From assembly GCA_903902705.1 (NCBI GenBank), contig CAIUVX010000198.1, positions 1-52,468 of the forward strand: a DNA stretch of 52,468 nucleotides, given 5' to 3'. The stretch comes from an uncultured Methylococcales bacterium (GTDB lineage: Bacteria; Pseudomonadota; Gammaproteobacteria; Methylococcales; Methylomonadaceae). Positions within the stretch are counted from its first letter, which is position 1. Each line of letters opens with the position of its first letter. The position numbers were made by a program, and so were the translations under genes. Shown here piece after piece: positions 4,590-40,330 of the stretch. The notes under the pieces were generated by a model. The model searched no databases. It was not told the origin of the DNA and saw nothing but the letters and a program-made list of their open reading frames with translations.

Positions 4590-4855
4590 CCTAAGCTAGC
4601 AATTAAAGCCAAAATGTCTTCTACGCGCCACGCGGTAGTTCTTTCGGATAATTTCACGGATGCAGGATATTTGCCTGATTTCACGCCGTTCCACCAGCTT
4701 GACTTCGACACTGGAATTAATGCGGGTATTCCGCGCTTTTTATCGCCAACAATTTGAGATAAGCGAAAAAACCCCGTTTGAAGCGTTTGATGTGCAGGTG
4801 GATTTAAATTGAGTGCGGATGCTGTTTTCACCATTATTGGTGTCACTTTTTTCAT
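4580..4855 (-). CDS. AlpA-family DNA-binding regulator
   Basis: A 91-residue product whose central part has the AlpA/excisionase layout: an aromatic-Arg-Leu start (GFFRLSQIVG, about 28-37), then PVSKSSWWNGVKSGKYPASVKL, where the winged helix-turn-helix recognises DNA, and a C-terminal WRVEDILALI. AlpA proteins act as activators of integrase genes or as excisionase-like factors in P4-type elements. The start is supported by AGGA six bases upstream, lying in an inverted repeat. The likely targets are repeats near the integrase promoter, but that is inference. Confidence 0.75.
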   Translation of the reverse strand: MKKVTPIMVKTASALNLNPPAHQTLQTGFFRLSQIVGDKKRGIPALIPVSKSSWWNGVKSGKYPASVKLSERTTAWRVEDILALIASLGCV

Positions 4856-4857
4856 TT

Positions 4858-4884
4858 GTATTCCTGTTGAAATTTAAGGAATAC
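4858..4884 (-). promoter_or_regulatory. Inverted repeat over the alpA ribosome-binding site
   Basis: Perfect 8-bp arms GTATTCCT (4858-4865) and AGGAATAC (4877-4884) with an 11-base spacer. The arm nearest the gene holds the Shine-Dalgarno AGGA. It shares the ATTCCT...AGGAAT core with the hairpin before the primase gene, suggesting common control of regulator and replication genes. Confidence 0.45.
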
Positions 4885-5046
4885 ATATTTTGAGACATGA
4901 AAAATAGGGTTTTCGCGAGGGTTTCTGTATTTGGACGTACCTGCACGTCAAAAAACTTGACTGTCCATAACCTATTGAAAGATATAGGTAAGGTAAAAAG
5001 AGCTGACACGGTAAAAAATAATCAAAATTACTAGAATCCAGTAACA

Positions 5047-5407
5047 GCGCGTAAAGCGAGCTATATTTGTTTTTGTTCCTTTTTTACGATTTGGTGAATT
5101 CTTTGGCGCGTTAAACCTGTGCCGTCTGCTAATTTACGCAAAACGGATTCACCTTTTCTTAAATTTGGATTGCCACATTGTGCGTTTAAAAAAGTGATCG
5201 CCTTAATCATGTCGGTTTTTTGCTGATACCCCATAGTTAAATATACGAAGGCTAAACGAATATTTTTATCGCGTTCCTCGGTTCTTGCTTTTCTAATTTT
5301 CGCTAAACGATTTGCGGCTTTAATCGCTCTTTTTTTTTCGCCCTATTGCGTCAATTGGCATGGATTACACCTATTATTTATGAGTATGAATAGCTCGCTT
5401 TACGCGC
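5047..5407. repeat. 361-bp unit bounded by 18-bp perfect terminal inverted repeats
   Basis: The 18 bases at 5047-5064 (GCGCGTAAAGCGAGCTAT) recur as an exact inverted copy at 5390-5407. Weaker matching continues about ten bases outward. The unit holds one small helix-turn-helix gene whose stop codon lies inside the left repeat. This could be a tiny mobile cassette, a pair of operators, or a long-range RNA stem. No transposase is present and I saw no target-site duplication. Confidence 0.55.
5061..5361 (-). pseudogene. Small helix-turn-helix protein gene broken or recoded at an A9 run
   Basis: From ATG 5361 the frame reads MPIDAIGRKKKSD and stops. Dropping one A from the nine-A run (plus-strand T run 5330-5338) joins it to a protein-like frame of about 87 codons that ends at TAG 5061-5063. 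The joined product of about 99 residues is basic and ends with GLTRQRIHQIVKKEQKQI, a helix-turn-helix-like segment. The downstream frame has no ATG start before an in-frame TAG, so expression needs slippage at the A run, or the A9 is a sequence error, or the gene is dead. It lies between 18-bp inverted repeats, upstream of alpA. No family is recognised. Confidence 0.55.
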
Positions 5408-5748
5408 CATTGCTAGATTTAGTGATTCTATGGCGGGTAATTATTGTTAGTGTCAACAGCAATAAGTATATTCAGCCGTTATGACGGATAAACACCCCTA
5501 TGACGGTTAGAATGGCACTTAATGACGGATAGGTGACAGATAGAAAAACGCCACAAGTCACGAATAGCGGGGCTGGTGACACTTGTGACGGATATGACGG
5601 ATAAAAACCCACCTTGCACGATAGACGCATTAAATTAATTAAAAATCCTACCACCTTCTCTCTGTTAATAAATACCTATTATCTTATAGGGTATGTGATG
5701 CTACAGATAAAATATAAGGGGGGTAATTGTCATCCGTCATATTAAAAA
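5408..5748. repeat. Intergenic region with TGACGG repeats; possible origin or control region
   Basis: This 340-base stretch after the integrase gene has no convincing gene. It carries TGACGG at 5482, 5501, 5523, 5586 and 5595, the variant TGACAG at 5534, and an inverted copy CCGTCA at 5734-5739. The part around 5586-5625 repeats sequence from the 3' part of the helicase-like gene (about 1187-1217), including ttgtgacggataaaaaccc. Such direct repeats near a primase-helicase module are what replication origins or regulatory iterons look like. It could equally be a decayed copy of the helicase gene end. Confidence 0.4.
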
Positions 5749-7008
5749 TTACGCACTTTTACCAAATGGAATAATCACCGCGCCCGCTTTCAAACTATCC
5801 AGATAATCTGCCCACGCTTGCATCATCTTATGGCGTTCTGGTAAATGTGAAGTGCGATTGTAGGCGCGTCCGTTTGGGTCTCTTACAGCATGGGCTAGTT
5901 GATGCTCAATAAAGTCAGGGCGAAAGCCTAAGCCCTCATCTAAGATGGTTCTAGCCATTGCTCTAAAGCCATGTATCGTCATCATTTCTTTACCAAATCC
6001 CATACTACGCAATGCGACTAATAATGCCATATCCGACATGGCCCGTGAACCGTTGGGGGTTCGTTCATTCGGAAATACAAAACGCCCACCACCTGTTAAT
6101 GATTTGATAGTTTCCAGTATGGCTATGGCTTGAGTGCATAAAGGCACAATATGAAAGGTCTTAGTTTTGGTGACAAAATATCGCCATTCTTTGGTATCAA
6201 AATCAATATGAGACCATTCTGCATGATATAACTCGCTAGGTCGGACGAAAACCAAAGGGGCAAGCTGTAGAGCTGATTTAACGACAAATGAACCGCTGTA
6301 TTCATCAATGGCGCGTAGAAGTTTCGCTGCTTCCAATGGTTCAGTTATAGCGGCAAAGTGTCCACCATTAACAGAGGATAACGCGCCGCGTAAATCTGGG
6401 GTTATATCTCGTTCTGCTTTGCCCGTTACAATCGCATAACGGAATATAACGCCGCTAAGATGTAATGCTCTATGTGCGGTTTCGACTGTTCGACTTTCAA
6501 TACGCCGTAACACTTCCAGCAATTCAGGTGCTTTTATCTCCACTATGGGACGCTTGCCAAGCCAAGGGAATAAATCCTGTGTCATCATATTTAATATGCG
6601 TTTTTGATACTGTTCTGACTTACTAGGCATTTTTACCGCGAACCATTCCATAGCCACAAATTCAAAGCTATCAATAGCGGGCAGTCCAGCATCAATACGT
6701 TTTTCATTTTCGATGTTCTGACGCTGTTCTGTTTTTACTTGTTTTCTGGTATCGCTAGGGTCAATGCCATTGCTTACTTGATTACGCGCTTCTTTAGCCT
6801 TGCGTCTAGCATCGGCAAGCGTAGTTGATGGATAAACGCCAACGGATAAAGTTTTGCGCTTACGTTCGATGGTGTAGTCAAATCGCCACCACTTAGCCCC
6901 ATTAGGTTTAACAAGTACATAAAGACCGCCGCCATCATTAAGCCGCTGGTCTTTGTCGGTGGGCTTGGTATTGCGGATAGTGACATCGTTCAATAATTCT
7001 TTAGCCAT
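5749..7008 (-). CDS. P4-type tyrosine integrase
   Basis: A 419-residue product with the N-terminal DUF4102 arm-binding domain (residues about 5-90, with LNDGGGLYVLVKPNGAKWWRFDY), a central core-binding region, and a C-terminal catalytic domain. The catalytic set is visible: first Arg in FVRPSEL, a Lys in the TKTKTFHIVPL strand, HGFRAMAR (His-x-x-Arg), a His in EHQLAHAV, and the nucleophile Tyr in AYNRTSHL. These enzymes integrate elements at the 3' ends of tRNA genes. Here the gene lies 171 bases from the 3' end of tRNA-Arg(CCU), the expected arrangement, and it defines the right end of the element. Confidence 0.93.
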   Translation of the reverse strand: MAKELLNDVTIRNTKPTDKDQRLNDGGGLYVLVKPNGAKWWRFDYTIERKRKTLSVGVYPSTTLADARRKAKEARNQVSNGIDPSDTRKQVKTEQRQNIENEKRIDAGLPAIDSFEFVAMEWFAVKMPSKSEQYQKRILNMMTQDLFPWLGKRPIVEIKAPELLEVLRRIESRTVETAHRALHLSGVIFRYAIVTGKAERDITPDLRGALSSVNGGHFAAITEPLEAAKLLRAIDEYSGSFVVKSALQLAPLVFVRPSELYHAEWSHIDFDTKEWRYFVTKTKTFHIVPLCTQAIAILETIKSLTGGGRFVFPNERTPNGSRAMSDMALLVALRSMGFGKEMMTIHGFRAMARTILDEGLGFRPDFIEHQLAHAVRDPNGRAYNRTSHLPERHKMMQAWADYLDSLKAGAVIIPFGKSA

Positions 7009-7010
7009 TG

Positions 7011-7087
7011 CAGTAACTCCAAATTCAGTAACAGTAATATTTACCTATTACTGTAAAACTTACTGCACAAATTGCAAGCTGTTACTG
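7011..7087. promoter_or_regulatory. Six CAGTAA/TTACTG sites upstream of integrase
   Basis: CAGTAA occurs at 7011-7016, 7026-7031 and 7032-7037, and the inverse TTACTG at 7048-7053, 7060-7065 and 7082-7087. The array is therefore three direct copies facing three inverted copies around about 7042. It lies immediately before the integrase start and between it and the tRNA attachment site. It is a likely arm-type site set for the integrase or operators for AlpA and integrase autoregulation. Confidence 0.5.
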
Positions 7088-7179
7088 CATTTCTTTACAC
7101 TTCATTGGACAATAAAAACACGCTAAGCCTTGTTAATTGCGGGTTTTTAAACTTCTTTGGACGTTGTTAAGTTGTTATT

Positions 7180-7256
7180 TGGTGTCCCCGATAGGAATCG
7201 AACCTACAACCTGCCCCTTAGGAGGGGGCTGCGCTATCCAGTTGCGCCACGAGGAC
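7180..7256 (-). tRNA. tRNA-Arg (anticodon CCU), attachment site of the element
   Basis: Read on the minus strand, this 77-base sequence folds as a cloverleaf: acceptor stem GTCCTCG/CGGGGAC, anticodon stem GCCCC/GGGGC with loop CTCCTAA (anticodon CCT, reads AGG), the T-arm sequence GGTTCGATTCC, discriminator A and an encoded CCA (7182-7180). The 3' end points at the integrase gene, as expected when an element recombines into the tRNA 3' half and restores it. The second copy of the 3' end should lie beyond the left edge of the window. Confidence 0.95.
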
Positions 7257-19902: not shown

Positions 19903-21399
19903 TTACAACTTAGGTCTCATGTGTGGAAATAATAAAACATCACGAATCGACGGCGCGTCAGTAAATAACATCACCAAACGATCAATGCCTATGCCCTCCC
20001 CCGCCGTCGGTGGCATACCGTGTTCTAAGGCAGTAATATAATCGGCATCAAAGTGCATAGCTTCATCATCGCCCGCTTCTTTCTCATTCACTTGTTGCTG
20101 AAAACGAGCGGCTTGGTCTTCGGAATCATTTAACTCCGTGAAACCATTGGCAATTTCCCGCCCACCGACAAAAAATTCAAAACGGTCAGTAACATGAGGA
20201 TTATCATCATTACGACGCGCAAGTGGCGATACTTCCACAGGATAGGCGGTAATGAACGTCGGATTCATCAGCTTACTTTCTACCGTTTTTTCAAAAATTT
20301 CAATCTGAATTTTACCTAAACCGTAACTATTTTTCACGGGTATGTGTAATTTTCCTGCCACTTTAACTGCCGCTTCGCGGGTATTAATATCATCAACGGT
20401 TAAATCAGGATTAAAATGCAGTATCGATTCTTCCACCGTCATACGCACAAACGGCTGACCAAAATCATACTCTTCACCTTGATAAGTAATAACTGTATGC
20501 CCAACTACTTCTTCGGCAATACCGCGTAACATCGCTTCCGTTAAATCCATTAACTCATGATATTCCGCATAAGCTTGATAAAACTCCAGCATGGTAAATT
20601 CAGGATTATGCCGTGTAGATAATCCCTCATTACGAAAGTTTCTATTAATTTCAAATACCCGTTCAAAACCGCCAACGACTAATCTTTTTAAATATAACTC
20701 AGGTGCGATACGCAAATACATATCCATATCTAACGCATTATGATGAGTCATAAAAGGACGCGCCGTAGCTCCCCCTGGAATAACCTGCATCATTGGTGTT
20801 TCGACTTCTAAAAAATCACGGTCAATTAAAAACTGGCGAATATAAGCCACCACTTTAGAGCGAATCAAAAATGTCTGCCGCGATTGCTCACTCATAATTA
20901 AATCTAAATACCGCTGACGGTATTTAATTTCCTGATCGGCAATACCGTGAAACTTCTCAGGCAACGGACGCAAGGCTTTTGTTAATAAGCGAATAGCATC
21001 GACTTTAATACTTAACTCACCCGTTTGCGTTCTAAATAAAACGCCTTCCGCGCCAATAATATCGCCAATATCCCATTTTTTAAATTGTTCATTATAAAAA
21101 TTTTCAGGCAACATATCGCGCGTCACATAAAGCTGAATCTGCCCTGACATATCTTGAATATGCACAAAACTGGCTTTCCCCATCACTCGCCGCGTCATTA
21201 TGCGACCCGCTAATTTAACGCGCAACGGCTCAGCCTCTAATTCTTCTTTAGATTGTTCCGCATACCGCGCTAATAATTCCCCCGCAACCACATTGCGGCG
21301 AAAATCAGTTGGAAACGCAATACTGTTTTCCCGTAATTCCGTTAATTTGCTACGGCGTTGTTTAATTTGTTCTTGTTCGTCTTGGATTTGTTCTGACAT
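19903..21399 (-). CDS. lysS: Lysyl-tRNA synthetase, class II
   Basis: A 498-residue product of normal length. The N-terminal OB-fold anticodon-binding domain (about 60-170, with [23 protein letters not shown]) is followed by the class II catalytic core with motif 2 ([24 protein letters not shown]) and motif 3 ([15 protein letters not shown]). It charges tRNA-Lys. In many gammaproteobacteria lysS directly follows prfB. Here the order is kept but two foreign-looking genes lie between them, 17 bases before the lysS start. Confidence 0.97.
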
Positions 21400-21416
21400 G
21401 AGTTCTCTATATTAAT

Positions 21417-22013
21417 TTAAGGTAAAAAGTATTGTAATCGATAGGTATCATGGCAAGGCTCTTCGGCAATTGATAATGATTTATCTCTATTTTCGTCAAA
21501 TTTTGCTTTTTCTTCTTTACGAGTAGTACCTTTATTACTGCGCTTTCGGCAACGAAATAAAATTCCTTTGAATATAATATCTTCCTTGTTTATTTCGTAG
21601 GATTCATTAACTATATTAAATATATCAATAATAAAATTTACAAAAACTTTTGATAATTTAAGTTGCTGTAAATATTTTCCTGTATTCTCAGATTTTAATT
21701 CAATTAAAAAGACATAAACTTGTTGATCTATTTGACAAATGATAATGGCATCGTTTTTGGAGCGTAATCCTTTTATCCTAGTTTCTTCATCGGCGTTAAA
21801 AAAAGGAAAAGCATAGTCGCATCCTGCTTTGTCTTTAAAATCAATTGAAAAACAAAAAACAGAATGTAGGTTTTTTATTGAAATTTCAACCCACTCACAA
21901 GCACAACTAATATCATTTTCGATAATGCGTAAAATATCACTATTATCGGGTTTAATATGGAATGGTTTTTCAGCAATTGCTTTTTGAAAAATGTCTGGCA
22001 CTGAATAATTCAA
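21417..22013 (-). CDS. Putative PD-(D/E)XK nuclease-like partner of the AAA ATPase
   Basis: A 198-residue product of no recognised family. A PD-(D/E)XK-type core can be read: Asp88 in KNDAIII, then a strand and turn, then Glu105 and Lys107 in VFLIELKSE, followed by a helix with Gln117 (YLQQLKLSK). The C-terminal third is basic (FRCRKRSNKGTTRKEEK). The start overlaps the ATPase stop as ATGA, so the two are made together. The DNA is visibly more AT-rich than flanking lysS and prfB. The pairing suggests a two-component defence or abortive-infection device with the ATPase as sensor and this protein as effector; this is inference. It lacks the Toprim signs of AriB or GajA partners. Confidence 0.55.
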   Translation of the reverse strand: MNYSVPDIFQKAIAEKPFHIKPDNSDILRIIENDISCACEWVEISIKNLHSVFCFSIDFKDKAGCDYAFPFFNADEETRIKGLRSKNDAIIICQIDQQVYVFLIELKSENTGKYLQQLKLSKVFVNFIIDIFNIVNESYEINKEDIIFKGILFRCRKRSNKGTTRKEEKAKFDENRDKSLSIAEEPCHDTYRLQYFLP

Positions 22014-23407
22014 TCACTTGACTCCTTTGCATCCTGCATTGCAAAATAAATTTTATTGGATGATTGGTTTAATTCATTAATAACCTTATCAAAAGTATCT
22101 ACGATAATTCCCTCATCGTCTAAATCCATAAGCGTAATTGTTTTATTGTCGAATAAATAAGCAGAAATACATTTATCATCTAACAATTCATTTTCTTGGT
22201 AGCCGTATTCTTTCTGTAACTCGATTGCTCCTGAGAAACCTTTTTTTAACATGATGAGATTATTTAATTCACGAACAAAATAATCGCTGTGGGTGCTAAC
22301 AATAACTTTTAAACCTGCATTGACTAATTGCGCTAAAATTCGTGCTACTTGTCGTTGATTATCAGGATGCAAATTAAGCTCTGGCTCATCAATCATTAAA
22401 TAATCACCTTCTTTAGCTAAATGTTTCAAGTAAAAAACTAGCCCAAAAAGCGATTTAACAGTGGATGAAGTAAAATGTAATGGTAATTTATTTTTGCTTT
22501 CAGAAGGCATAAATAATACATTGCCAAAGTCATCAACTTCATATTTTCCACCTAACACATTTTTTTGTATTATTTGAGCATATTCTTGATAATCACTAAT
22601 TCCTTTTTTAGTAGAACCGATAAGGCTAAGATACTGCAAATAATCTTTTATAGGGTCAGCATAACGTGCTTTTACAATATCTTTTAGGAAGAACATTGGA
22701 TTAACACTATCATTTTGAGATTGCTGCAATAATAAATTACGAATACTAAAAAGTTCTCTAAAAAATAAATTCACCCCATCTCTTTCTGAAGGTAACAAAG
22801 TAATGCCTTGATCTTGAAACTGATATGTGTTAAAAAATAAAATACTAGCTAGTCTTTCCGAAAGAATAGATTGAAAAATATTGTATTTAGTTGATAACTC
22901 ATTTTCTATCGAATATAACTCAAAACCTTTAACTTTTTTGACAGCTTCTTGTTCATCAGAAGAGGGAAGGCGAACTTTTCCATTGTTGAAAATAATGCCA
23001 GCTATAACCATTCTTCCATCATTTTCAATTGATTTTTTAATTTCTTTCTGAGTATATAAAGAAAAATTTATTTTTATTTTTGTTTTTAAAAATAATTCAT
23101 TAGAAACACCAAAAAGCTCAGGTAAATATTCAGTAAACCCTTTTTCAATACCATTAACTATTTCATCTCTGTTTTCATAAATTATTTCAGATAAGTCTAG
23201 GGATTCATAATCTTCTAAAGTTTTTAATTTATTAAAAATTGATTGGACAAAATCAAATTTAATATTATAACGTTTGCTCAGCAAACCATAAATAGAATAC
23301 ATTGCATAAGTTTTTCCCGAATTATTTTTACCACAAAAAATAGTAAAGTCATTCAGTTCAATACTGCCCTTGTCAATACCGCCTAGATGTTCAAAATCAA
23401 TTTTCAT
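22010..23407 (-). CDS. OLD/AAA_15-type ATP-binding protein
   Basis: A 465-residue ABC/SMC-like ATPase: Walker A GKNNSGKT at residues 26-33, Walker B LMIDEPELNLHP around 337-347, and a switch histidine in IVSTHSDYFVREL near 369-381. The middle (about 60-300) is a helical insertion, and no Toprim nuclease domain follows the ATPase part. Proteins of this class drive several anti-phage systems (OLD, Gabija, Septu, PARIS) by sensing phage or DNA structures. It begins 17 bases after prfB and is coupled to a 198-residue nuclease-like gene. The DNA is AT-rich, pointing to horizontal acquisition. Confidence 0.8.
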   Translation of the reverse strand: MKIDFEHLGGIDKGSIELNDFTIFCGKNNSGKTYAMYSIYGLLSKRYNIKFDFVQSIFNKLKTLEDYESLDLSEIIYENRDEIVNGIEKGFTEYLPELFGVSNELFLKTKIKINFSLYTQKEIKKSIENDGRMVIAGIIFNNGKVRLPSSDEQEAVKKVKGFELYSIENELSTKYNIFQSILSERLASILFFNTYQFQDQGITLLPSERDGVNLFFRELFSIRNLLLQQSQNDSVNPMFFLKDIVKARYADPIKDYLQYLSLIGSTKKGISDYQEYAQIIQKNVLGGKYEVDDFGNVLFMPSESKNKLPLHFTSSTVKSLFGLVFYLKHLAKEGDYLMIDEPELNLHPDNQRQVARILAQLVNAGLKVIVSTHSDYFVRELNNLIMLKKGFSGAIELQKEYGYQENELLDDKCISAYLFDNKTITLMDLDDEGIIVDTFDKVINELNQSSNKIYFAMQDAKESSD

Positions 23408-23424
23408 TTTTTACTCCATGTGAG

Positions 23425-24523
23425 TTATAGCCCACTCTTCAAACTCGCCTCAATAAACTGATCTAAGTCGCCGTCTAATACCGCTTGGGTGTTGCCTGTT
23501 TCTACGCTAGTGCGTAGGTCTTTGATGCGTGATTGGTCTAAGACGTAAGAGCGGATTTGACTGCCCCAGCCGATGTCGGATTTACTGTCTTCTAGCGTTT
23601 GCTGAGTTTCTGAGCGTTTGCGCATTTCCAGTTCGTACAGTTTGGCTTTTAACTGTTTCATCGCGGTGGCACGATTTTTATGTTGCGAGCGGTCGCTTTG
23701 ACATTGTACGACGATATTAGTGGGGATATGAGTCATACGCACGGCGGATTCGGTTTTGTTGATATGCTGACCACCTGCACCACTGGCTCGATAAACATCA
23801 ATGCGAATATCGGCAGGATTAAGGTCTATGTCGAAGTCATCGTCAATTTCGGGCGACACAAATACCGAGGCGAACGAGGTATGACGGCGATTGCCTGAGT
23901 CGAATGGCGATTTTCTGACTAAACGGTGTACGCCTGTTTCCGTGCGTAGCCAGCCAAACGCGTATTCGCCTTCAAAGCGAATGGTGGCACTTTTAATGCC
24001 TGCAACATCACCTTGTGATTCTTCAATTAGTTCGGTTTTAAAGCCTTTGCGCTCGCCCCAGCGTAAGAACATACGCTCTATCATTGATGCCCAATCCTGC
24101 GCTTCGGTGCCGCCTGAACCTGATTGAATATCCAAGAAAGCGTTGTTCGCATCCATTTGCCCTGAAAACATACGGCGAAATTCGAGGTTAGCTACGCGCT
24201 GTTCAAAATGGTCTAAGTCGCCGATGACCGTATCAACGGTTTCTTCATCTTCTTCTTCGATAGCCATGAGTAATAATTCTTCGGCATCGGCAAGACCTCG
24301 TTCTAATTCGGTGATGGTATTAACGATAATTTCCAGTTGCCCACGTTCTTTGCCCAATTCTTGGGCTAGTTCTGGATTGTCCCAAATTTTTGGGTTTTCT
24401 AATTCGCGTAAGACTTCAACGAGGCGTTCGCTTTTATTGTCGAAGTCAAAGATACCCCCTAAGCGCGTCACCACGGCTTTTAAGATCAGCGATTTTATTT
24501 TTAATTGGATTTATTTCTTGCAT
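23425..24523 (-). CDS. prfB: Peptide chain release factor 2 with programmed +1 frameshift
   Basis: The true start is ATG 24523. The first 25 codons ([15 protein letters not shown], ending ALRGYL) run to an in-frame UGA at 24448-24446. A +1 shift at CTTTGAC then gives DFDNKSERL and the remainder, in total 365 residues, the normal RF2 length. An internal Shine-Dalgarno AGGGGG lies just upstream of the shift site, exactly the classic arrangement by which low RF2 raises its own synthesis. Key motifs are the stop-recognition tripeptide SPF (VRKSPFDSG) and the catalytic GGQ ([12 protein letters not shown]). It releases peptides at UGA and UAA. The downstream operon continues through two inserted genes to lysS. 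Confidence 0.96.
24445..24465 (-). promoter_or_regulatory. prfB programmed frameshift element
   Basis: Minus strand: AGGGGGTATCTTTGAC. The G-rich block pairs with the 3' end of 16S rRNA, three bases before the CTT slip codon and the UGA stop. Slow termination at UGA permits slippage from CUU to UUU. Confidence 0.93.
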
Positions 24524-28416: not shown

Positions 28417-29511
28417 TCAGTGCTTAAAATATAAATTAATTAACCTAACAATCACTGTTTTATGAATCGGCTTCAGTTCGGAATCATTTTCTACTGCGGT
28501 TAAAAAATCGTTGATGAAATTTTGTAGTGAAATAATGAGCCTGAGATAGTATTTCAATGTTGGAACCACACCATTTACGATGACTTGGCAACCGTGATTT
28601 TCTTTGATTTCGTTGACGATATTTTTAACAGCTTCTGCTTCAATAACTTGTCCGCTCGAAAAAACGCAGTACCGTTTTGGATTGTGCTTGTAGATTTTTT
28701 GCTGAACTTGTCGCATTAAATCTGCATTAATTGGCTTGTCCAATTTGATTTCAATCGCTTCAATCAGTTCGCCATTTTTAAATATCTCAATATCACCTGC
28801 TGTTTTTGAAGTTCTATCTGATGCGGTATGGCTGCCCAGTTTGTTCAGTGTACAACCTTCGTAGCGTTTCAATTCGTCAATTAATTGCTGAAAAATACAG
28901 TGGAACGCAATAACAGGTAATTTTGAACCGCCAAAATCTTTGTAATTATAGCTAAAGCAAGCCTCCAAAAAAGCAGTAATGCTATCAATGGTAAAATTAT
29001 CCTTATCATCAATTTTCGTAATTAACACTATGTCGCGTTTACTTTTTTGAATCACACAAAACAACAAGTATGTTAATAGTGGCGTGGCGGTTGTTGGTTC
29101 ATTTTCTACATAATCAAGAATCTGAAGAAAAGCCTGTTTTAGTTTTGTATTGCTGATTTTTCCTTGGTAATCCAATGTATAAGCGTAGGGTTGTTCGAGA
29201 GAACGAGTAAGCCAGCCACTTTCTGACATACAGGGCAATCCGAGTTCTCTCAAAGTCGGCGTAATGTGTTTTGTATCAATAGAACGACCAGAAAAACCAC
29301 CACCCATATTGCTTTGATGTAAACGAACATCTTGGCTGGGTTCAATAATTTTATGCGTTAGCAATGTGACCAAAACCGTATAAACACCTTTTTGATTTAA
29401 TGCGTGGTTAGCAATCAATTCAATCAACGTGCTGTGTGCTTCGGTTAATTCAGACGCAATCAAATTCAAGGCTGAATTGTAAATTTCTTTTAGTAATTCG
29501 CTGTGGTTCAT
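28417..29511 (-). CDS. Type II restriction endonuclease, SacI-like
   Basis: A 364-residue product directly downstream of a cytosine-5 methyltransferase, with a 62-base overlap between the two genes. The segment QDVRLHQSNMGGGFSGRSIDTKHITP near residues 58-83 is the type of N-terminal signature I associate with the SacI family of restriction endonucleases. A nuclease core can be read further on: GDIEIFKNGELIEAIEIKLDKP, with Asp, Glu and the ExK pair of a PD-(D/E)XK fold. If the family call is right the site could be GAGCTC, but related enzymes differ. It cuts unmethylated incoming DNA. Confidence 0.7.
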   Translation of the reverse strand: MNHSELLKEIYNSALNLIASELTEAHSTLIELIANHALNQKGVYTVLVTLLTHKIIEPSQDVRLHQSNMGGGFSGRSIDTKHITPTLRELGLPCMSESGWLTRSLEQPYAYTLDYQGKISNTKLKQAFLQILDYVENEPTTATPLLTYLLFCVIQKSKRDIVLITKIDDKDNFTIDSITAFLEACFSYNYKDFGGSKLPVIAFHCIFQQLIDELKRYEGCTLNKLGSHTASDRTSKTAGDIEIFKNGELIEAIEIKLDKPINADLMRQVQQKIYKHNPKRYCVFSSGQVIEAEAVKNIVNEIKENHGCQVIVNGVVPTLKYYLRLIISLQNFINDFLTAVENDSELKPIHKTVIVRLINLYFKH

Positions 29512-30505
29512 TTGTACTCAAAAGTTGTTGGTTAAGTATTTGGGTGGCTAATTCAGTCACCATCGGAACACAAACAGAATTACCCACTTGTTTATAGGCT
29601 TCGGATTTACTTTCAGACATTTTAAAATTTTCTGGGAATCCCATAATTCGATAGCACTCTTTAATCGTTAGTTTTCTTACTGCATCTTTGTCTGGAAGGT
29701 AAATAAAAAAACGTCCTGACGATTCTTGAGAGGGTATTGTCGGGTGTGTTCCTTGCACAGAATAAATGCGGTTGGGTTGTTTATGCACACGCGATAAATG
29801 TTCCGTATTTTCTCTAACTCCCGCCTTTCTAATTGCTTTATTTCGATAACCAACAAACATCAATCCCGATTCTTTCTGCACAATTGGATTTTCAATCAAG
29901 GTGTATTCATCTTTATTCAAAAACTCAAAATCACCACCTTCATCATCTAAAAATGTTTCAAGCGATTCAGTTTGACTAAAATTGCACTTTGAAAAGTTAA
30001 ACGGCTTTTCTTTTGTGGCAAAAATAATGATACGTTCACGATTTTGTGGTATTCCAAAATTCTTCGCATTTAACAACTTAAAGTTGACGTGATAGCCTAA
30101 TTCTTCCAATGAATTCAAAATAACAGTTAGTGTGTTGCCGCTGTCATGATGAATTAGATGTTTCACGTTTTCCAATAAAACCACTTTCGGTTGCTTTGCA
30201 TTGATAATTTCGCAAATGTGGAAAAATAACGTTCCGCGTGTATCTTCAAAACCTCTTTTTCTGCCACAAATACTGAATGGCTGACAAGGAAAGCCCGCTG
30301 TTAATACGTCATGATCTGGAATATTATTTAGTGGTATTTTTGTGACATCACATAACGGCGATTCACCAAAATTGTTTTGATAGGTCTTTTTGCAATAATC
30401 ATTTATTTCCGATGACATTAAGCATTCAAAACCTGATTTTTCAAAGCCAATTCTGAAGCCACCAATTCCTGAAAATAAATCAATAAATGTAGGTTTATTT
30501 TTCAT
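29450..30505 (-). CDS. DNA (cytosine-5)-methyltransferase of a type II R-M system
   Basis: A 351-residue product with all the landmark motifs in order: I DLFSGIGG (9-16), IV GFPCQPF with catalytic Cys74, VI ENV (112-114), VIII QNRER (154-158), a target-recognition region (about 165-290), and X QVGNSV near the C-terminus. It protects host DNA by 5-methylation of cytosine. It partners the endonuclease encoded immediately downstream. A nuclease-domain gene precedes it by 30 bases. The DNA is AT-rich relative to uvrB, consistent with acquisition. Confidence 0.95.
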   Translation of the reverse strand: MKNKPTFIDLFSGIGGFRIGFEKSGFECLMSSEINDYCKKTYQNNFGESPLCDVTKIPLNNIPDHDVLTAGFPCQPFSICGRKRGFEDTRGTLFFHICEIINAKQPKVVLLENVKHLIHHDSGNTLTVILNSLEELGYHVNFKLLNAKNFGIPQNRERIIIFATKEKPFNFSKCNFSQTESLETFLDDEGGDFEFLNKDEYTLIENPIVQKESGLMFVGYRNKAIRKAGVRENTEHLSRVHKQPNRIYSVQGTHPTIPSQESSGRFFIYLPDKDAVRKLTIKECYRIMGFPENFKMSESKSEAYKQVGNSVCVPMVTELATQILNQQLLSTNEPQRITKRNLQFSLEFDCV

Positions 30506-30535
30506 AAATTTAAATTAATAAAGATGACTATAAAA

Positions 30536-31168
30536 CTAAAATTGGTTAATTTCGGCTTTTTTAATGCTCGAACCAAATGGTGGAATAGTGGCGATAAAAT
30601 AAAAACCGTCACGTTTAAAACCCGCATTACCTAAACCTTGTCTGATATTTTTATCATTCTCAGGGTCTTTAAAATCATCGGTTAGTAATAATCCATCGGT
30701 GGTATCAAAACCAAATTTTGGAATATTCGTTTTTGTTTTTCTGGCTTTAGTTTTGCCTTTATCAACTAAAAAATATTCATCCGCAATACCCGATGTTACC
30801 CAAACATATAATGCACCTTCGGCAACTGCATAACTAAAGGCTTGGTCAACCGCTTGTTTAAATTCAAGGTCAGTAATTTCCTGATTTTTGCATTCGACAA
30901 TAATATAAGGCGATAAACACGCATCATCATTATAAATAATAATATCAGCTTGTTTTTTACTAACGCCCATTTGTACGGTAACAAACTGGCGTATTCTTTC
31001 AACTGGATATTTATAGTCTAAAACCAATTTTAAAAATGTTTCGGCTTGTACTTGCTCTTCGGGATTGGTGTAATTACGGCGTACATTTTGATAAATATAG
31101 AAGATGTTTTTTCGGTCTTCATCAAAACGGATTAAACCTTTTTCTATGCCTTGCTGTATTAAGTCCAT
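30536..31168 (-). CDS. Stand-alone HsdR N-terminal-type nuclease domain protein
   Basis: About 210 residues from ATG 31168. An upstream in-frame extension to 31273 looks like non-coding sequence. It matches the type I restriction R-subunit N-terminal domain family (HSDR_N_2): EEQVQAETFLKLVLDYKYP, then the PD-(D/E)XK core KKQADIIIYNDDACLSPYIIVECKNQE with Asp, Glu and Lys, then the QAFSYAVAEGALYVWVTSG helix and strand. There is no helicase part. It may be an auxiliary nuclease of the neighbouring R-M pair or a relic of a larger enzyme. It is co-oriented and 30 bases upstream of the methyltransferase gene. Confidence 0.75.
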   Translation of the reverse strand: MDLIQQGIEKGLIRFDEDRKNIFYIYQNVRRNYTNPEEQVQAETFLKLVLDYKYPVERIRQFVTVQMGVSKKQADIIIYNDDACLSPYIIVECKNQEITDLEFKQAVDQAFSYAVAEGALYVWVTSGIADEYFLVDKGKTKARKTKTNIPKFGFDTTDGLLLTDDFKDPENDKNIRQGLGNAGFKRDGFYFIATIPPFGSSIKKAEINQF

Positions 31169-31378
31169 GATTATTGATGTGAGGGTGAAAAGTTTGGATT
31201 GATGGGCATTATAGGCTAAGGATGGGCAGGGTTTTCGTTTATTCAAGATTTCCAAGTTCAAGAAAACCATCATTTAATTCAATGTCGGCTAATTTTCTAC
31301 GTTTAGCTTGCGGGGCTTTTCGTGTTCCCCCCGTGTTTCGCTACGCTCAGCGCGAACGGTCAACCCTCAACTTAAAAA

Positions 31379-35592: not shown

Positions 35593-35617
35593 GATGGGCT
35601 TCGTGCCTTAGCCCATC
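35593..35617. repeat. Palindromic repeat at the dinD 3' end
   Basis: Perfect 8-bp arms GATGGGCT (35593-35600) and AGCCCATC (35610-35617) with a 9-base loop. The dinD stop codon (35610-35608) and its last residues (RMG) are read from this repeat, so the repeat appears to have supplied a new end for the gene. Confidence 0.55.
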
Positions 35618-36456
35618 CTATCGTGCTTTTTCTTTTTATCAGTATCGAGTTTTTTCATTTTATTGTTAGCGGACTTAATTTGTTTTTTCACTTTGTTAAT
35701 ATCGCCTTCAAGTGGTAAATCTTCGGGAGCAACACCCGAAGACCTTAACATAATGTCTCTGACTTCTTTGCCGACTGCTTTTGCAGTATTAACCGACTGA
35801 TTAAGTCCTTGCACATGATTATTTTTCATTCGTTCGGCGGTTTGGGTGACTCTAAAGGTGTTAGCAGCAAGCTCTGTCAATCCCATAAAATCATAAAGCG
35901 TTTTTTTAGTATCAGCTCCTTTATGGAGCTGGAGTTGCTTTAATGACATATTGTACATACCACGAAAACCAGCATCTTTAAAAATGCCATATTCACCATT
36001 TTGAATGCCTGCTGATTTCGCTATACCGCTCAGGTGTTTTTCAACGCCTGATAACTTATGTCTTTCCTCTATGCGAATGATGCCAGCATCAGCCATTTTT
36101 TCTTCAATTAATGCTTCTGCAATCGCGGCTAACGTGACTTGTGCTTTAGCGACCTCGATTTTTTTGCTGTCTGCTTGCATAGCAATTAAAAAACAGGCAA
36201 ATCGAGTTAGCTTATAGGTTTTAGTACCATTATCTAATTCCGCTACAATGAAAACATCATCAACATCAATGCCTAACTGCAAACAACTACTCATCGCTTT
36301 TTGAATCACGACTTTAAAAGATGACCAGTTTTCATAGCCCAACTTTTTCATAAAATCATGCGCTACCCAATAACGAATACCGTTTTGATGTGCGTCATTT
36401 TCAAAGCTTTCTATATCCAGCTTTAGCTGTTCTTGCTCAATGTTGTGGTTAGTCAT
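35608..36456 (-). CDS. dinD: DNA damage-inducible protein D-like
   Basis: A 282-residue product resembling DinD: a BRO-N-like N-terminal part (GIRYWVAHDFMKKLGYENWSSFKVVIQKAM, about 24-53), the middle FACFLIAMQADSKK, and the diagnostic C-terminal block YGIFKDAGFRGMYNMSLKQL and LYDFMGLTELAANTFRVTQT. E. coli DinD is SOS-induced and interferes with RecA activity. I could not find a clear LexA box of the CTGT-N8-ACAG type upstream, so SOS control is uncertain here. The C-terminus ends in a lysine-rich tail and a repeat. It lies in a block of toxin-antitoxin genes. Confidence 0.8.
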   Translation of the reverse strand: MTNHNIEQEQLKLDIESFENDAHQNGIRYWVAHDFMKKLGYENWSSFKVVIQKAMSSCLQLGIDVDDVFIVAELDNGTKTYKLTRFACFLIAMQADSKKIEVAKAQVTLAAIAEALIEEKMADAGIIRIEERHKLSGVEKHLSGIAKSAGIQNGEYGIFKDAGFRGMYNMSLKQLQLHKGADTKKTLYDFMGLTELAANTFRVTQTAERMKNNHVQGLNQSVNTAKAVGKEVRDIMLRSSGVAPEDLPLEGDINKVKKQIKSANNKMKKLDTDKKKKHDRMG

Positions 36457-36607
36457 GTCTTTTTTTGGGTCTAAACTAAGGATGATTTTGATGGATAGTT
36501 TAGCAGAAATTACCCATTAATTTATACCGATACAACCGCAGGGTGGACTTGTAGTCTGGCAAATCTGCTAGACTTTAAGCTCAATTCACTATTTTAGGTT
36601 ATCGTTT

Positions 36608-37090
36608 ATGGATCGTAATGAGGAAATAGAAGAACGAATATCTTTTCTATATAAAAAAGCGACTACCTGCAAAAAAATTAATTGGAATCAAGGTGTCGCC
36701 TATTTGCAGGAAATGAATGCCTTAATGAAAACAAGTAGAGTGATTTACTCTGCGGAATATTGGACGCGATTGCCAGTATTTTTACAATCAGCAGGTCGAT
36801 TTGATGAAGCAATGGAAGAGTTTGAACGATTGCTTCAAGAAGTAGAGCCTCGCATTAATAAAGAAATGGGGCATTGTACACCAACTGCAATACGCTATTT
36901 TTGTCATGTTAATGTTGAAAGGATTTATGACAAAATGCGGATGGTTTGCAAGCGTCAAAAACTAACCGAAGAAACAAACAAATATGCAAAACTTAGTGAA
37001 CAAGAAATGCGTACTGTTTTGAGACTAAAAAAAGTAGTTGAGAAACAAGAAGAAAAAAGGCTGGAAAAATTCAGAAATAGAAAAGAATGA
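36608..37090 (+). CDS. Helical-repeat hypothetical protein
   Basis: A 160-residue, mostly alpha-helical, charged product. It has TPR-like spacing (WNQGVAYLQEMNALMK, then VFLQSAGRFDEAMEEFERLLQEV) and a strongly basic C-terminal helix (KKVVEKQEEKRLEKFRNRKE). No family is recognised. It is the only plus-strand gene in the island, with its own upstream region containing a small inverted repeat (agtctggc...gctagact, about 36553-36576). Two GC-rich hairpins follow its stop codon. Confidence 0.55.
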   Translation: MDRNEEIEERISFLYKKATTCKKINWNQGVAYLQEMNALMKTSRVIYSAEYWTRLPVFLQSAGRFDEAMEEFERLLQEVEPRINKEMGHCTPTAIRYFCHVNVERIYDKMRMVCKRQKLTEETNKYAKLSEQEMRTVLRLKKVVEKQEEKRLEKFRNRKE

Positions 37091-37182
37091 CAAAGATTTC
37101 TTGTTCCCAATCCAAAGCGCGACGGGGTATTTACCCCGTTGCAACGTTTTGATTGTGACGTTGTGCCAGAATTCAAACGTTT

Positions 37183-37206
37183 GGGGCGGGTTGAATAACC
37201 CGCCCC
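37183..37206 (+). terminator. Strong GC hairpin after the helical-repeat gene
   Basis: Arms GGGGCGGGTT (37183-37192) and AACCCGCCCC (37197-37206) are perfectly complementary with loop GAAT. No T run follows, so it is a stable mRNA end or part of a repeat rather than a classical intrinsic terminator. A smaller hairpin at 37122-37139 precedes it. Confidence 0.45.
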
Positions 37207-37356
37207 GCGCTGGGGTGGGTGTCGAACTCCAAAACTGGGTTTTGGACTCCAATATAAATACACGCTTACGCTGGATGTATCTGCCCACACGCCTTATCAA
37301 TCAAAGCATCCACTTCCTGTGCAATCGGCAAACCAACGCGATAAGATGCGCTAATT

Positions 37357-37437
37357 ATAGGATGTGCTGAGGTACGAAGCGCATCGTTCGAGAAAATCCA
37401 CGCGAATGATGCGCCTCCTATCGTCGGCACATCCTAT
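37357..37437. repeat. 81-bp nested palindromic repeat, copy 2
   Basis: Outer arms ATAGGATGTGCTGA (37357-37370) and TCGGCACATCCTAT (37424-37437) pair with one mismatch, and inner arms gaagcgcatcgttcg and cgaatgatgcgcctc pair with two. The whole unit could fold into one long hairpin. It resembles the degenerate copy at 34722-34780 and would fit a non-autonomous dispersed element. Confidence 0.6.
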
Positions 37438-37539
37438 TTCTCGTCTTATGCTTTCAGTCCAAACGGCTCTATCGTTTGCCCACGCGGAACACGCGAAATC
37501 CACATAATCGGTGGGCAAGCAAAAAGACGCTTGCCAACC

Positions 37540-37911
37540 CTACGAAACTGGTGGTTTTATGTAAAGCCACCGCCGCACTGTCCATCGTAGAACATCATTA
37601 GCAACACTTGGCACATTAAGCGCAACAACTGCTTGTATCATACTGTCAATATGAGTGGGCTTAACGTCATCAATCGATAAACTACCTAGGTGTGGTTTTA
37701 TGTATTTATCGATTCTTGCCTTAATTGCCCTGTCATTTTTCCAAGTTCCTACAATCTTTTTTTCATAGTACAAATCAGCTTTGTGTTCGCGTGTTATCGC
37801 ATCCTCATGCGGTAATGGTTTAACACGCGTTATATTCTTGATATTGGTTTGTGGTGCGTGGTTTATGATAGTGCTAGTACCTAAACTATCTACGAATATT
37901 ATTTTTTCCAT
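37540..37911 (-). pseudogene. Integrase fragment, duplicated from the nearby intact gene
   Basis: The 123-residue frame contains, from ADLYYEKKIVGTWKNDRA to SVANDVLRWT, about 66 residues nearly identical to the core-binding region of the integrase at 39080-40330. The DNA match covers 37581-37780 with 11 differences in 200 bases, to 39811-40010. The flanking residues on both sides (N-terminal MEKIIFVDSLGTST and C-terminal VRRWLYIKPPVS) are unrelated, so no functional recombinase is encoded. It is a relic of duplication or of an earlier, related integrase. Confidence 0.8.
37581..37780. repeat. 200-bp direct repeat, left copy
   Basis: Matches 39811-40010 at about 189 of 200 positions in the same orientation, 2230 bases away. 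The interval carries two toxin-antitoxin modules and the C-terminal half of the integrase gene. Recombination between the copies would delete them together. Confidence 0.85.
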
Positions 37912-38015
37912 ACAACGCCCCTACGCGCTTATCCCCTCAAATAAAAATAACCAAGCCGCGCCGCTTGAAGGGTTACGGCTTTTCGCTCCGTCGGGCTAGG
38001 CTTGGCTAAACTGGT

Positions 38016-38348
38016 TTATAACACTTGCATAAAAGAAAGTTCTATATCATCGTTAAAGGCTTGAATTGCATCACCCTTGTTTCTGAGTATTAGCTCAATG
38101 GTTCTGTTTGAGCAATTACCGCGCCTTATCCAGATAACTTTAGGAGGGTATCCAAACAGTACACTTTTATCGTAAAAATCAGAATCTTTGCTAATCAATA
38201 CATAGCCGTTGGCTTTTGCATACTCCCATACTGCATTATCGGATTCACCACCTAAACCAAGTCTATCAACGTGTTTTGAATTGGGGAAAATATCGCTTAG
38301 GTTTACCGCTAACTTAGGCGATAGGTTTTCATCAAATAATAATTTCAT
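38016..38348 (-). CDS. DUF5615 PIN-like toxin
   Basis: A 110-residue product with the Mut7-C/PIN-like pattern of DUF5615: LLFDENLSPKLAVNLSDIFP at the N-terminus, then DNAVWEYAKANGYVLISKDSDFYDKS with the acidic residues of the active site, and PPKVIWIRRGNCSN. It is a predicted ribonuclease toxin. Its start overlaps the DUF433 antitoxin stop as ATGA, the standard arrangement for this pair. Confidence 0.85.
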   Translation of the reverse strand: MKLLFDENLSPKLAVNLSDIFPNSKHVDRLGLGGESDNAVWEYAKANGYVLISKDSDFYDKSVLFGYPPKVIWIRRGNCSNRTIELILRNKGDAIQAFNDDIELSFMQVL

Positions 38349-38575
38349 GCAGTGATAACCCTAGAATGCTTTTCACGATCAGCCGCGTAGGCAAAACATG
38401 CTTGTAAGTCTTCCTTAGTCAAATAATCAAAATCTTCTAATATTTCATCTTGCGTCATGCCAGAAGCGAAATATTCCAGAATGTCATAAACGGTAATACG
38501 CAAGCCCCTTATGCAAGGCTTACCGCTTCTTTTACCCGCTTCTATGGTGATAATGTTTTGATAGTTTGTTGTCAT
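38345..38575 (-). CDS. DUF433 antitoxin
   Basis: A 76-residue product with the DUF433 signature ITIEAGKRSGKPCIRGLRITVYDILEYFASGMTQDEILEDFDYLTKEDLQACFAYAA, a winged helix-like fold. It is the known antitoxin partner of DUF5615 toxins and probably represses its own operon. Four-base overlap with the toxin gene downstream. It lies ten bases after the RelE-type gene, so the two modules may be co-transcribed. Confidence 0.85.
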   Translation of the reverse strand: MTTNYQNIITIEAGKRSGKPCIRGLRITVYDILEYFASGMTQDEILEDFDYLTKEDLQACFAYAADREKHSRVITA

Positions 38576-38585
38576 AGTATTAACC

Positions 38586-38852
38586 TCACTTATAAATGTT
38601 TTTACGGTGTCCTATCTCGATAACCAAGATAATCAGCTCATTGTCTTGAATTTGAGCAATCAAACGATAATCCCCCACTCGATACCGCCATAATCCCTTT
38701 AAATCGCCTTGTAATGCTTTACCTGTTTGTCTTGGATTATCTAGGTTAGGTAATAAGCAGTTAATGAAATGTTGTATTTTTCGCTTGGCTTGACTATCCA
38801 GCTTATCAATCGCTTTTCCTGCTCTATGGCTTACATTAACTGTCCACGTCAT
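38586..38852 (-). CDS. RelE/ParE-family toxin
   Basis: An 88-residue product with the RelE fold order: WTVNVSHRAGKAIDKLDSQAKRKIQHFI, GKALQGDLKGLWRYRVGDYRLIAQIQDNELIILVIEIGHRKNIY. The conserved LWRYRVGDYRLI strand pair and C-terminal GHRKNIY are typical of ribosome-dependent mRNA interferases of this family. The start overlaps its antitoxin gene by 17 bases. Confidence 0.88.
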   Translation of the reverse strand: MTWTVNVSHRAGKAIDKLDSQAKRKIQHFINCLLPNLDNPRQTGKALQGDLKGLWRYRVGDYRLIAQIQDNELIILVIEIGHRKNIYK

Positions 38853-39060
38853 GTGCTAAAGTCCTATTAAATTGTTCAAGGGTTAAAACGCTCTCTTTAC
38901 CCGCTTCAATATCCGCTAAGGCTTTTTCTCCTAGTTCAATATCTTCTAAATCATACTCAAGGCTTTTTAATGCCCACTCTAATATTTTGTCAGTCGTTAC
39001 ATTTTTCTTATGAGCTAAGGTGATTAATTGTTTTTCTAGGTGTTCGGGTAAGGTAATCAT
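38836..39060 (-). CDS. Ribbon-helix-helix-like antitoxin of the RelE module
   Basis: A 74-residue product, MITLPEHLEKQLITLAHKKNVTTDKILEWALKSL followed by an acidic linker and a tail (GKESVLTLEQFNRTLAHDVDS). Position and overlap make it the partner of the RelE-family toxin. It would bind the toxin and autoregulate. It lies 19 bases after the stop of the intact integrase gene on the same strand. Confidence 0.8.
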   Translation of the reverse strand: MITLPEHLEKQLITLAHKKNVTTDKILEWALKSLEYDLEDIELGEKALADIEAGKESVLTLEQFNRTLAHDVDS

Positions 39061-39079
39061 GGTTTTATCCTTTGTGTAG

Positions 39080-40330
39080 TTAGTGGGTAGCGCGTTTTCT
39101 TATTGTCGTTATATTCCATTCTTTTCCAAGTTCACAAGCGGTCAATAATTTAGCCCATAACTCTAAAGCCTTGCGGCGTTCGTCTAAATAATCATGGTGG
39201 TTATAAACGCCTTCAATGCCTTTTAACTTGTGGTTTAGACAACGTTCTGCAATGTGAGAATCAACACCTAACGCGGCTAAATGTGAACGGGCAGTTCGCC
39301 TAAAATCATGAATGCAGAAGTTAGCCATATCCAGAAACGGCTTGACCTTTGCCAGTGCTACATTAAGGGTGTTTTCGTGAATATGAGGTAGTTTATGGTG
39401 TTGAACTTTACGCGCTGGTAATAGCCATTCACTAGAGACTGAGATAGCTATTAACTCTTGTAATGCCTCAATAGCGGGCTTGGATAAGGGAATAATAATG
39501 GCGGTTTGGGTTTTAGTATGATCCGCTGGTAAATGCCACAATCCAGCATTAAGGTCAAACTCTGAACGCTTAGCGGTAATGAGTTCACTTTTACGAACAG
39601 CTAACAGTAACAACAATTTGACCATCAAATAGCTTTCTCTAGTAAAGCCTTCAGTATTGCGCATGGTCTCAAATAGCACTATCAATTCATTACTAGACAG
39701 TACGCGGGTTCTTGGTGTTGATTTACCGCCCGCATCAGAAAGGCTAAAAGCAGAAACTGGATTATATTGGACAATATGGCGTTTAATCGCATAGTCAAAG
39801 ATTCGCTTTGTCCACCGCAAAACATCATTCGCAACACTTGGCACATTAAGCGCAACAACTGCTTGTATCATGCTGTCAATATGAGTGGGCTTAACGTCAT
39901 CAATCGATAAACTACCTAGGTGTGGCTTAATGTATTTATCGATTCGTGCCTTAATGGCCCTGTCATTTTTCCAAGTCCCTACAATCTTCTTTTCATAGTA
40001 CAAATCAGCTAATGAGGCAAAATTTGAAACATTAATTTTATCGAGTGCTTTAGCTTTACGCTCTTGTTTTTCGTTAGCCACATCAAAACCAGATATAACC
40101 CGCGCCATTAATTCTTTAGCTTTTTTACGCGCTTCTGCTAAAGAAACCTGCTTGTAATTGCCTAAATTGACAACGCGCTGTTTACCTACAAAACGATAGC
40201 GAAACCGCCATATAGGAGTTTTTAGCTCCTTTCGATAGCACAAAGAAAGACCGTTACCATCGGCTTTACTTTCAAATCTCACATCGTTTTTTATCCAGCT
40301 TCTAATCTCAATATCGCTAAGCCCTGCCAT
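39080..40330 (-). CDS. P4-type tyrosine integrase of the second island
   Basis: A product of 416 residues from ATG 40330, which begins MAGLSDIEIRSW and has AGGTG five bases upstream; an earlier start adds twelve unlikely residues. The N-terminal arm-binding DUF4102 region contains ADGNGLSLCYRKELKTPIWRFRYRF. The catalytic residues are Arg in AVRKSEL, Lys in DHTKTQTAIIIPL, HDFRR, His in ERCLNHK and Tyr in GVYNHHDY. It probably mobilised the toxin-antitoxin block downstream. No tRNA lies beside it; repeats at 40415-40497 may be its site. Confidence 0.92.
   Translation of the reverse strand: MAGLSDIEIRSWIKNDVRFESKADGNGLSLCYRKELKTPIWRFRYRFVGKQRVVNLGNYKQVSLAEARKKAKELMARVISGFDVANEKQERKAKALDKINVSNFASLADLYYEKKIVGTWKNDRAIKARIDKYIKPHLGSLSIDDVKPTHIDSMIQAVVALNVPSVANDVLRWTKRIFDYAIKRHIVQYNPVSAFSLSDAGGKSTPRTRVLSSNELIVLFETMRNTEGFTRESYLMVKLLLLLAVRKSELITAKRSEFDLNAGLWHLPADHTKTQTAIIIPLSKPAIEALQELIAISVSSEWLLPARKVQHHKLPHIHENTLNVALAKVKPFLDMANFCIHDFRRTARSHLAALGVDSHIAERCLNHKLKGIEGVYNHHDYLDERRKALELWAKLLTACELGKEWNITTIRKRATH
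39811..40010. repeat. 200-bp direct repeat, right copy (inside the integrase gene)
   Basis: Part of the intact integrase gene encoding the core-binding domain, matched at 37581-37780 with 11 differences. Divergence implies that the duplication is not recent or that the left copy came from a sister integrase. Confidence 0.85.

Follow-up and report, generated by a model that had tools for sequence, protein, structure and literature searches.

WonAB consists of an ABC-ATPase and a PD-(D/E)xK nuclease, and its protection is lost in mutants of the ATP site and of the nuclease (PMC12137116). Activation of WonAB inhibits translation and leaves chromosomal DNA intact, and its authors propose rRNA or tRNA as the target; they present PD-T4-4, a described anti-phage system, as similar in organisation, with differences. 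The present analysis concerns a PD-T4-4 pair in a 52,468-nt stretch of DNA (the window; contig CAIUVX010000198.1, positions 1 to 52,468) from an uncultured Methylococcales bacterium of the family Methylomonadaceae, where the two genes lie between prfB, encoding release factor 2, and lysS, encoding lysyl-tRNA synthetase. The reading we favour, at a probability of about 0.72, is that the pair occupies an exchange slot for defence cassettes that is internal to the prfB-lysS operon, free of a recombinase and read from the prfB promoter. PD-T4-4 itself is known; what is new is its context, a defence hotspot that lies in a short translation operon and for which no recombinase was identified.

Profile searches place both proteins in PD-T4-4. 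Among PADLOC models, the ATPase scores 415.8 bits with PD-T4-4_A (residues 1-458 against profile positions 1-459 of 460) and the small protein 143.5 bits with PD-T4-4_B (residues 7-197). The weaker matches of the ATPase are AriA (100 bits), Old (59), PtuA (up to 45) and GajA (40). Since both proteins match PADLOC models and the models of other systems score far lower, the pair is by profile similarity PD-T4-4, and the cassette a new member of it. Pfam assigns the ATPase to AAA_15 (PF13175; 100.1 bits against a cut-off of 32.1); its Pfam matches at E <= 1 include no Toprim family. Membership of OLD or Gabija is rejected on this missing Toprim match and the low Old and GajA scores, that of PARIS on the AriA score and the absence of AriB from the small protein's five PADLOC matches, and that of Septu on the PtuA score and on a small protein that has neither a PtuB match nor any Pfam match.

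These results bear on an earlier note made from the sequence alone. Its AAA_15/OLD-type ATPase without Toprim is borne out by the Pfam matches, and its two-gene ATPase-nuclease defence or abortive-infection unit stands, except as an unnamed type: the note knew no named system for the pair and had itself given a match to a described one as grounds for abandoning that view, and both proteins match PD-T4-4. Gaps of 17 nt separate the prfB stop from the ATPase start and the end of the small gene from the lysS start, and the GC content of the insert is 26-31% vs about 35-49% in the flanks. ORF positions and GC content thus agree with the coordinates, the minus-strand pair, the 17-base gaps and the AT-rich insert of that note. 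The overlap that it gave as ATGA reads TTGA, 4 nt that combine the TGA stop of the ATPase with the TTG start of the small gene. The translated ATPase contains a Walker A motif, GKNNSGKT (residues 26-33), and a Walker B region, LMIDEPELNLHP. In the small protein, the D88...E105-x-K107 core of the note takes the form D88...E105-L-K107, and an alignment of five B sequences, of which two are almost the same, shows no variation at Asp88, Glu105 or Lys107. We regard B as a putative PD-(D/E)xK-type nuclease, whose fold and target we infer.

The same pair recurs between prfB and lysS in six further genomes of the family, so its placement is more than chance. That placement, remarked on in the earlier note, proved to be its valuable point. 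A survey of the prfB-lysS gap comprised 121 family genomes, with G003 added from a separate search; 7 of the 121 had no prfB match at the cut. Both genes lie on one contig in 95 genomes (96 rows) and in order in 95 rows, two of them from G085; these 95 are the measurable gaps. Not counted are G015, where the genes are not adjacent, and 20 genomes in which lysS had no match or lay on another contig than prfB. Among the 95 gaps of these methanotrophs, 59 measure 24-313 nt and 36 measure 446-3,532 nt. The latter are termed loaded, a threshold of at least 446 nt that was chosen after the distribution had been viewed, with no gap falling between 313 and 446. Every measured gap is loaded in genera g1 (6/6), g8 (2/2), g12 (7/7), g23 (3/3) and g24 (6/6), and some are in g11 (2/6), g13 (1/7), g15 (1/2), g16 (5/7) and g19 (3/5). 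Seven more genomes of g12, a genus that includes Methylomonas, lie outside the 95 and have five loaded sites. Loaded sites also occur in single-contig genomes (G030, G089, G090, G106, G107), which makes a contig artefact unlikely.

Loading is rarer outside the family. The corresponding distance in E. coli K-12 is 9 nt. A set of named loci was divided into L073-L098 (n=26, 19 measurable) and L099-L152 (n=54, 48 measurable). Loaded gaps make up 9 of the 19 at loci titled Methylococcales, Methylococcaceae, Crenothrix, Methylobacter or Methylomonas, and none of the 48 under other titles, where the largest gap is 277 nt. The comparison of 36/95 with 0/48 gives a Fisher p of 2.7e-8, a value that does not allow for relatedness. 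Elsewhere in the order, the 446-nt threshold is reached by three of the 41 gaps measured in other families: AIPR proteins, an abortive-infection type, fill those of G162 (L162; 569 aa) and G182 (L163; 560 aa), and that of G149 holds a toxin-antitoxin-like pair identified by eye. Among the matches listed, prfB and lysS form one continuous match with an empty gap in 17 further genomes of these families. No report of a prfB-lysS slot was found among the papers listed in searches of open-licence literature.

The cargo is varied and largely related to defence. In this part of the analysis, families were assigned through cluster representatives, ORFs were taken from the first possible start codon, and opposite-strand ORFs below 100 aa were dropped. 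The 79 ORFs of the 36 loaded sites fall into 31 sequence clusters and make up 21 gene combinations, and a strong PADLOC match is present at 17 of the sites. PD-T4-4 occurs in the surveyed slots of the window genome (G000), G014, G093 and G145; HEC-01 in G006, G078, G079, G099 and G121; HEC-04 in G022; and PDC-M19 in G001 and G029. Restriction systems are of type II in G002 and G113 (the latter with a split methyltransferase) and of type IV (Mrr) in G005 and G007, and G124 holds a PD-T4-2A/NsnA-like gene with a HEPN protein. Toxin-antitoxin-like, HEPN-like or RNase-like genes are found in 13 of the 36 sites. A DUF433 and DUF5615 pair, the second protein being PIN-like, is shared by five slots (G018, G068, G107, G133, G142), an NYN-OST-HTH protein by three (G089, G090, G106), and RelB/YafQ genes are also present in G022 and G145.

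Five slots (G030, G094, G108, G111, G126) contain a pair of 138 and 139-157 aa that matches no Pfam family and, in PADLOC, has only a weak hit to PDC-M28A (23 bits). We take this pair to be HEPN-like, and its recurrence makes it a candidate for an unnamed defence pair. It sits directly behind prfB at L044, L047, L048, L050, L053 and L057, and also at L071 and L165, its second protein measuring 139-160 aa over all these loci; at L071 (G016) it follows prfB with lysS on another contig. By eye, L165 (G201) also resembles the remnant of an NYN/HEC-01B fusion. In g24 and in the window's genus, lysS is immediately preceded by a DNA photolyase gene (L026, L028, L029, L031, L057, L060, L062), which is broken in L028 and is often separated from prfB by a defence gene.

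Fixed conserved flanks with variable, mostly defence-related cargo in relatives are what characterises a defence hotspot, and this is the pattern found here. No hallmark of a mobile element, namely an integrase, a prophage or a tRNA, was identified at the site; one transposase-like ORF was recognised by eye in G030. No integrase occurs in the slot among the cluster representatives scanned, a set from which c16, c31-c33, c36 and c37 were left out.

Relatives of the ATPase at E <= 1e-30 are present in 28 of 237 family genomes, and intact PD-T4-4 in the slot in 7 of the 237, the window included. All seven intact copies with at least 59% identity are flanked by prfB and lysS; the next two, G640 (56%) and G032 (54%), are not. 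A 39-row tree groups these two with the eight slot rows in one clade (support 100/98); since L075 and the G598 copy do not differ, the eight rows stand for seven genomes. By themselves, the slot rows are not one clade in the PD-T4-4_A tree, which requires three changes. In a sample of the class, the ATPase matched 12 of 369 genomes at E <= 1e-40, with a top identity outside the family of 47% over partial length. Plasmid records gave 33 matches and phage records three, all below 60% identity. No relative was found in a search of viral contigs with the ATPase, nor in one of genome contigs with B. Two slots retain remnants of the ATPase, C-terminal in G634 (L211) and N-terminal in G116 (L060).

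Exchange of cargo is best judged within the window's genus, which includes Crenothrix sp. D3 (G007). All seven other genomes examined from the genus carry cargo after prfB or before lysS, and most of it differs. G006 has an ATPase and DUF4276 pair; G007 has Mrr and a photolyase, and G005 the same with the photolyase broken; G001 has a DUF488-type pair; and G002 combines a methyltransferase, a restriction enzyme and a photolyase. G004 retains methyltransferase and restriction-enzyme pieces on a contig with N, and in G003, split over two contigs, prfB is followed by a 128-aa ORF and lysS preceded by a photolyase. Relative to the window, prfB and lysS are 98% and 99% identical in G006 and 97% and 99% in G007, and the cargo between these near-identical flanks is unrelated: PD-T4-4 in the window, HEC-01 in G006, Mrr and photolyase in G007. 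Together with the two remnants, this is the best sign of turnover.

The slot could also have been filled by a few old insertions that were inherited vertically, with many later losses and little exchange. Such descent would explain why cassette families share similar 5' junctions across genera and why several cassette pairs diverge about as their flanks do; in G006 and G079, which belong to different genera, HEC-01 is 92% identical in A and 80% in B, with 95% for the prfB C-termini and 79% for the lysS N-termini. It does not fit the unrelated cargo between prfB and lysS genes of 95-99% identity in the window's genus, nor the window cassette, whose identity to the other slot copies is 60-63% for A and 36-41% for B, vs 92-98% for the prfB C-termini. 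We consider predominantly vertical inheritance unlikely.

The arrangement of the cargo suggests that it is read with the operon. Of the 79 cargo ORFs, 78 point from prfB to lysS, the exception being the transposase-like ORF of G030; with a 100-aa floor applied to both strands, 65 of 66 are co-directional. The first ORF begins a median of 29 nt past the prfB stop, within 60 nt in 30 of the 36 sites, and touches or overlaps prfB in four. Over 44 slot stretches (69,919 nt), a script for terminator-like hairpins detected a single one, on the strand opposite to the operon; their absence from the operon strand is weak support because hairpins this strict are rare on either strand. In the window, no terminator-like site lies on the prfB strand between the two genes, and the number of promoter-like sites stays at background level (15 vs 13.0 expected). 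PD-T4-4 copies in the slot have in common a leader, CTCACA..GAG or close variants, before the ATPase start. The leader is kept even in G145, where PD-T4-4 sits behind another cassette, and is missing from the two clade members outside the slot. The cargo, including the window pair, is thus probably read from the prfB transcript, as the earlier note had proposed for the pair on placement.

Several observations weigh against the reading of an exchange slot for defence. The remaining 14 of the 24 genera measured have no loaded gap (0/44). G640 and G032 carry members of the PD-T4-4 clade outside the slot, and cassette-to-flank identities alone do not separate exchange from descent, so that exchange as a conclusion from identity alone is unsupported. 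Six loaded sites hold other cargo that is not clearly defence: a photolyase only (G140), PilZ (G100, G129), DuOB/DUF488/mSLOG (G086), an uncharacterised ORF (G096), and DUF4326 and photolyase beside the PD-T4-4 remnant (G116). For the nuclease assignment, a structure model of B built from two sequences has low confidence (mean pLDDT 58.2), and a PDB search with this weak model gave nothing at E <= 0.001, the best-scoring entry being an R2 retrotransposon protein (probability 0.89, E 0.18), whose endonuclease is presumably PD-(D/E)xK-like. Finally, among the matches listed in the 36 loaded genomes, one of the three gaps used as controls is itself loaded: tsf-pyrH in 5 of 28, at 878-2,035 nt. 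All five (L156-L160; G000:C127, G005:C166, G007:C29, G001:C50, G002:C33) belong to the window's genus, where they are all of the tsf-pyrH gaps measured (5/5). Because of these, the genus has more than one operon-internal variable gap, prfB-lysS is not unique in it, and a claim of uniqueness for the slot is weakened.

The tsf-pyrH result also lends itself to a plainer account, in which prfB-lysS is a tolerant spacer without regulatory meaning. The gap would accept insertions in some lineages, defence genes would be frequent since small mobile genes often serve defence, and the cargo would use weak promoters of its own or be barely expressed. The tsf-pyrH cargo (PIN/NYN, Uma2, a pectate-lyase-like ORF and small ORFs) and the photolyase and PilZ genes of prfB-lysS fit this account. 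It is at odds with the other two control gaps, rpsB-tsf (0/30) and pyrH-frr (0/17), which are unloaded in the same genomes among the matches listed, and with the strong PADLOC matches at 17 of 36 sites; the single orientation of 78 of 79 ORFs and their spacing of tens of nucleotides from prfB argue for constraint to operon reading. A tolerant spacer is possible, though we find it rather doubtful.

Alternatively, the cassettes may persist by selfish anchoring, kept because their deletion would harm the translation operon and not for any benefit against phage. Toxin-antitoxin-like and restriction-modification cargo is common and the family conserves both prfB and lysS, as this would predict. Nevertheless, empty slots are the majority (59 of 95), the remnants in G116 and G634 indicate that deletions inside the slot are tolerated, and PD-T4-4 and HEC-01 are not toxin-antitoxin pairs according to PADLOC. 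Anchoring of this kind appears improbable as the explanation.

An exchange slot for defence cassettes would operate as follows. In Methylococcales, and mainly in one family, small defence or toxin-antitoxin cassettes would settle a short distance past the prfB stop, preceded by a short leader and in operon direction, and would be driven by the prfB promoter. The conserved flanks, prfB and lysS, would probably serve as sites of homologous recombination through which cargo is swapped, and loss of cargo would occur through internal deletion. In the window cassette, the ABC-type ATPase may sense infection and the PD-(D/E)xK-type nuclease act as effector, and the pair may confer phage resistance. 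By analogy with WonAB, activation would most likely halt translation and abort infection.

A more specific link to release factor 2 was also considered. In the window, the true prfB start is the ATG at 24523, read via a +1 frameshift, and the GTG at 24474 is only an ORF-finder start. A strict frameshift site is present in 72 of 80 named prfB loci (73 with a looser pattern). The eight without the strict site include four titled Methylomonas; L084 and L090, also titled Methylomonas, have it. Nine named loci are loaded, five with the frameshift site and four (L088, L091, L094, L098) without. The latter rule out frameshift control as a condition for loading, and it is evidently not needed. A speculative and quite improbable extension is that the slot acts as a socket placing swappable defence cassettes under release factor 2 autoregulation: if release factor 2 or termination fails during phage takeover, frameshifting to give full-length prfB would rise, ribosomes reaching the prfB stop would re-initiate on the cassette, and its output would track translational distress. 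At loci without the site this form cannot hold, and only ordinary coupling within the prfB operon could apply.

Table 1. Features of the prfB-lysS slot in the window (positions in the 52,468-nt stretch)
Feature	Coordinates	Strand	Basis
PD-T4-4_A ATPase, 465 aa	22010..23407	-	PADLOC, Pfam AAA_15, motifs in translation
PD-T4-4_B, 198 aa, putative PD-(D/E)xK nuclease, TTG start	21417..22013	-	PADLOC and aligned residues
17-nt leader from prfB stop to ATPase start, with ribosome-binding-site-like GGAG	23408..23424	-	
prfB (release factor 2), upstream slot flank	23425..24523	-	homologues; ATG at 24523
prfB programmed +1 frameshift site, AGGGGGTATCTTTGAC; 25-codon upstream frame ending at TGA	24445..24459	-	
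lysS (lysyl-tRNA synthetase), downstream slot flank	19903..21399	-	homologues
prfB-lysS slot of the window genome (G000), 2,025 nt, PD-T4-4 inside	21400..23424	-	

Elsewhere in the window, positions 28417-31273 likely hold another restriction cluster. A C-5 cytosine methyltransferase (29450-30505) and an HSDR_N_2 protein (30536-31273) lie there beside a uvrB-like gene, and an unmatched 364-aa ORF (28417-29511) overlaps the methyltransferase. Phage integrases are encoded at 5749-7008, beside tRNA-Arg (7180-7256), the sole tRNA found in the window, and at 39080-40366. A C4 antisense RNA (4312-4398), an int-alpA RNA (37934-38006) and a BRO-N protein (35608-36456) are also present. These signs of mobile elements, at 4312-7256 and 35608-40366, flank the slot on both sides, well away from it.

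Defence islands are usually attributed to mobile elements that bring their own promoters. If the proposed slot is real, it would be a further means of retaining and exchanging immunity genes, expressed under the control of a housekeeping promoter, and it makes testable whether defence output tracks the expression of translation genes. Moreover, the slot offers a fixed, readable address for finding new defence systems in methanotrophs, since several of its genes, among them the pair of 138 and 139-160 aa, could not be assigned to a family with confidence.

Integron cassettes are promoterless, co-directional and read from an upstream promoter. The slot resembles integrons in its co-directional cassettes behind an upstream promoter and differs in that no integron integrase occurs among the slot ORFs scanned, attC sites having been outside the search. 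The core defense hotspots of P. aeruginosa (PMC10250203) reportedly share with the slot a variable defence cargo at a fixed chromosomal address between conserved genes. They are reportedly larger islands; the slot differs in consisting of 0.4-3.5 kb of co-directional genes within a two-gene operon. With WonAB, the window pair has in common the pairing of an ABC-ATPase with a PD-(D/E)xK nuclease, a putative one in the window, a likeness that follows its authors' statement and not a comparison with a WonAB model (PMC12137116). The closest relation is to PD-T4-4, with which the pair shares an ATPase gene followed by an adjacent, co-directional gene for a nuclease-type partner, both matching the models of that system; judged by PADLOC models and not by the tested E. 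coli sequences, the window copy stands apart in its position inside the prfB-lysS operon (Vassallo et al. 2022, PMC9519451).

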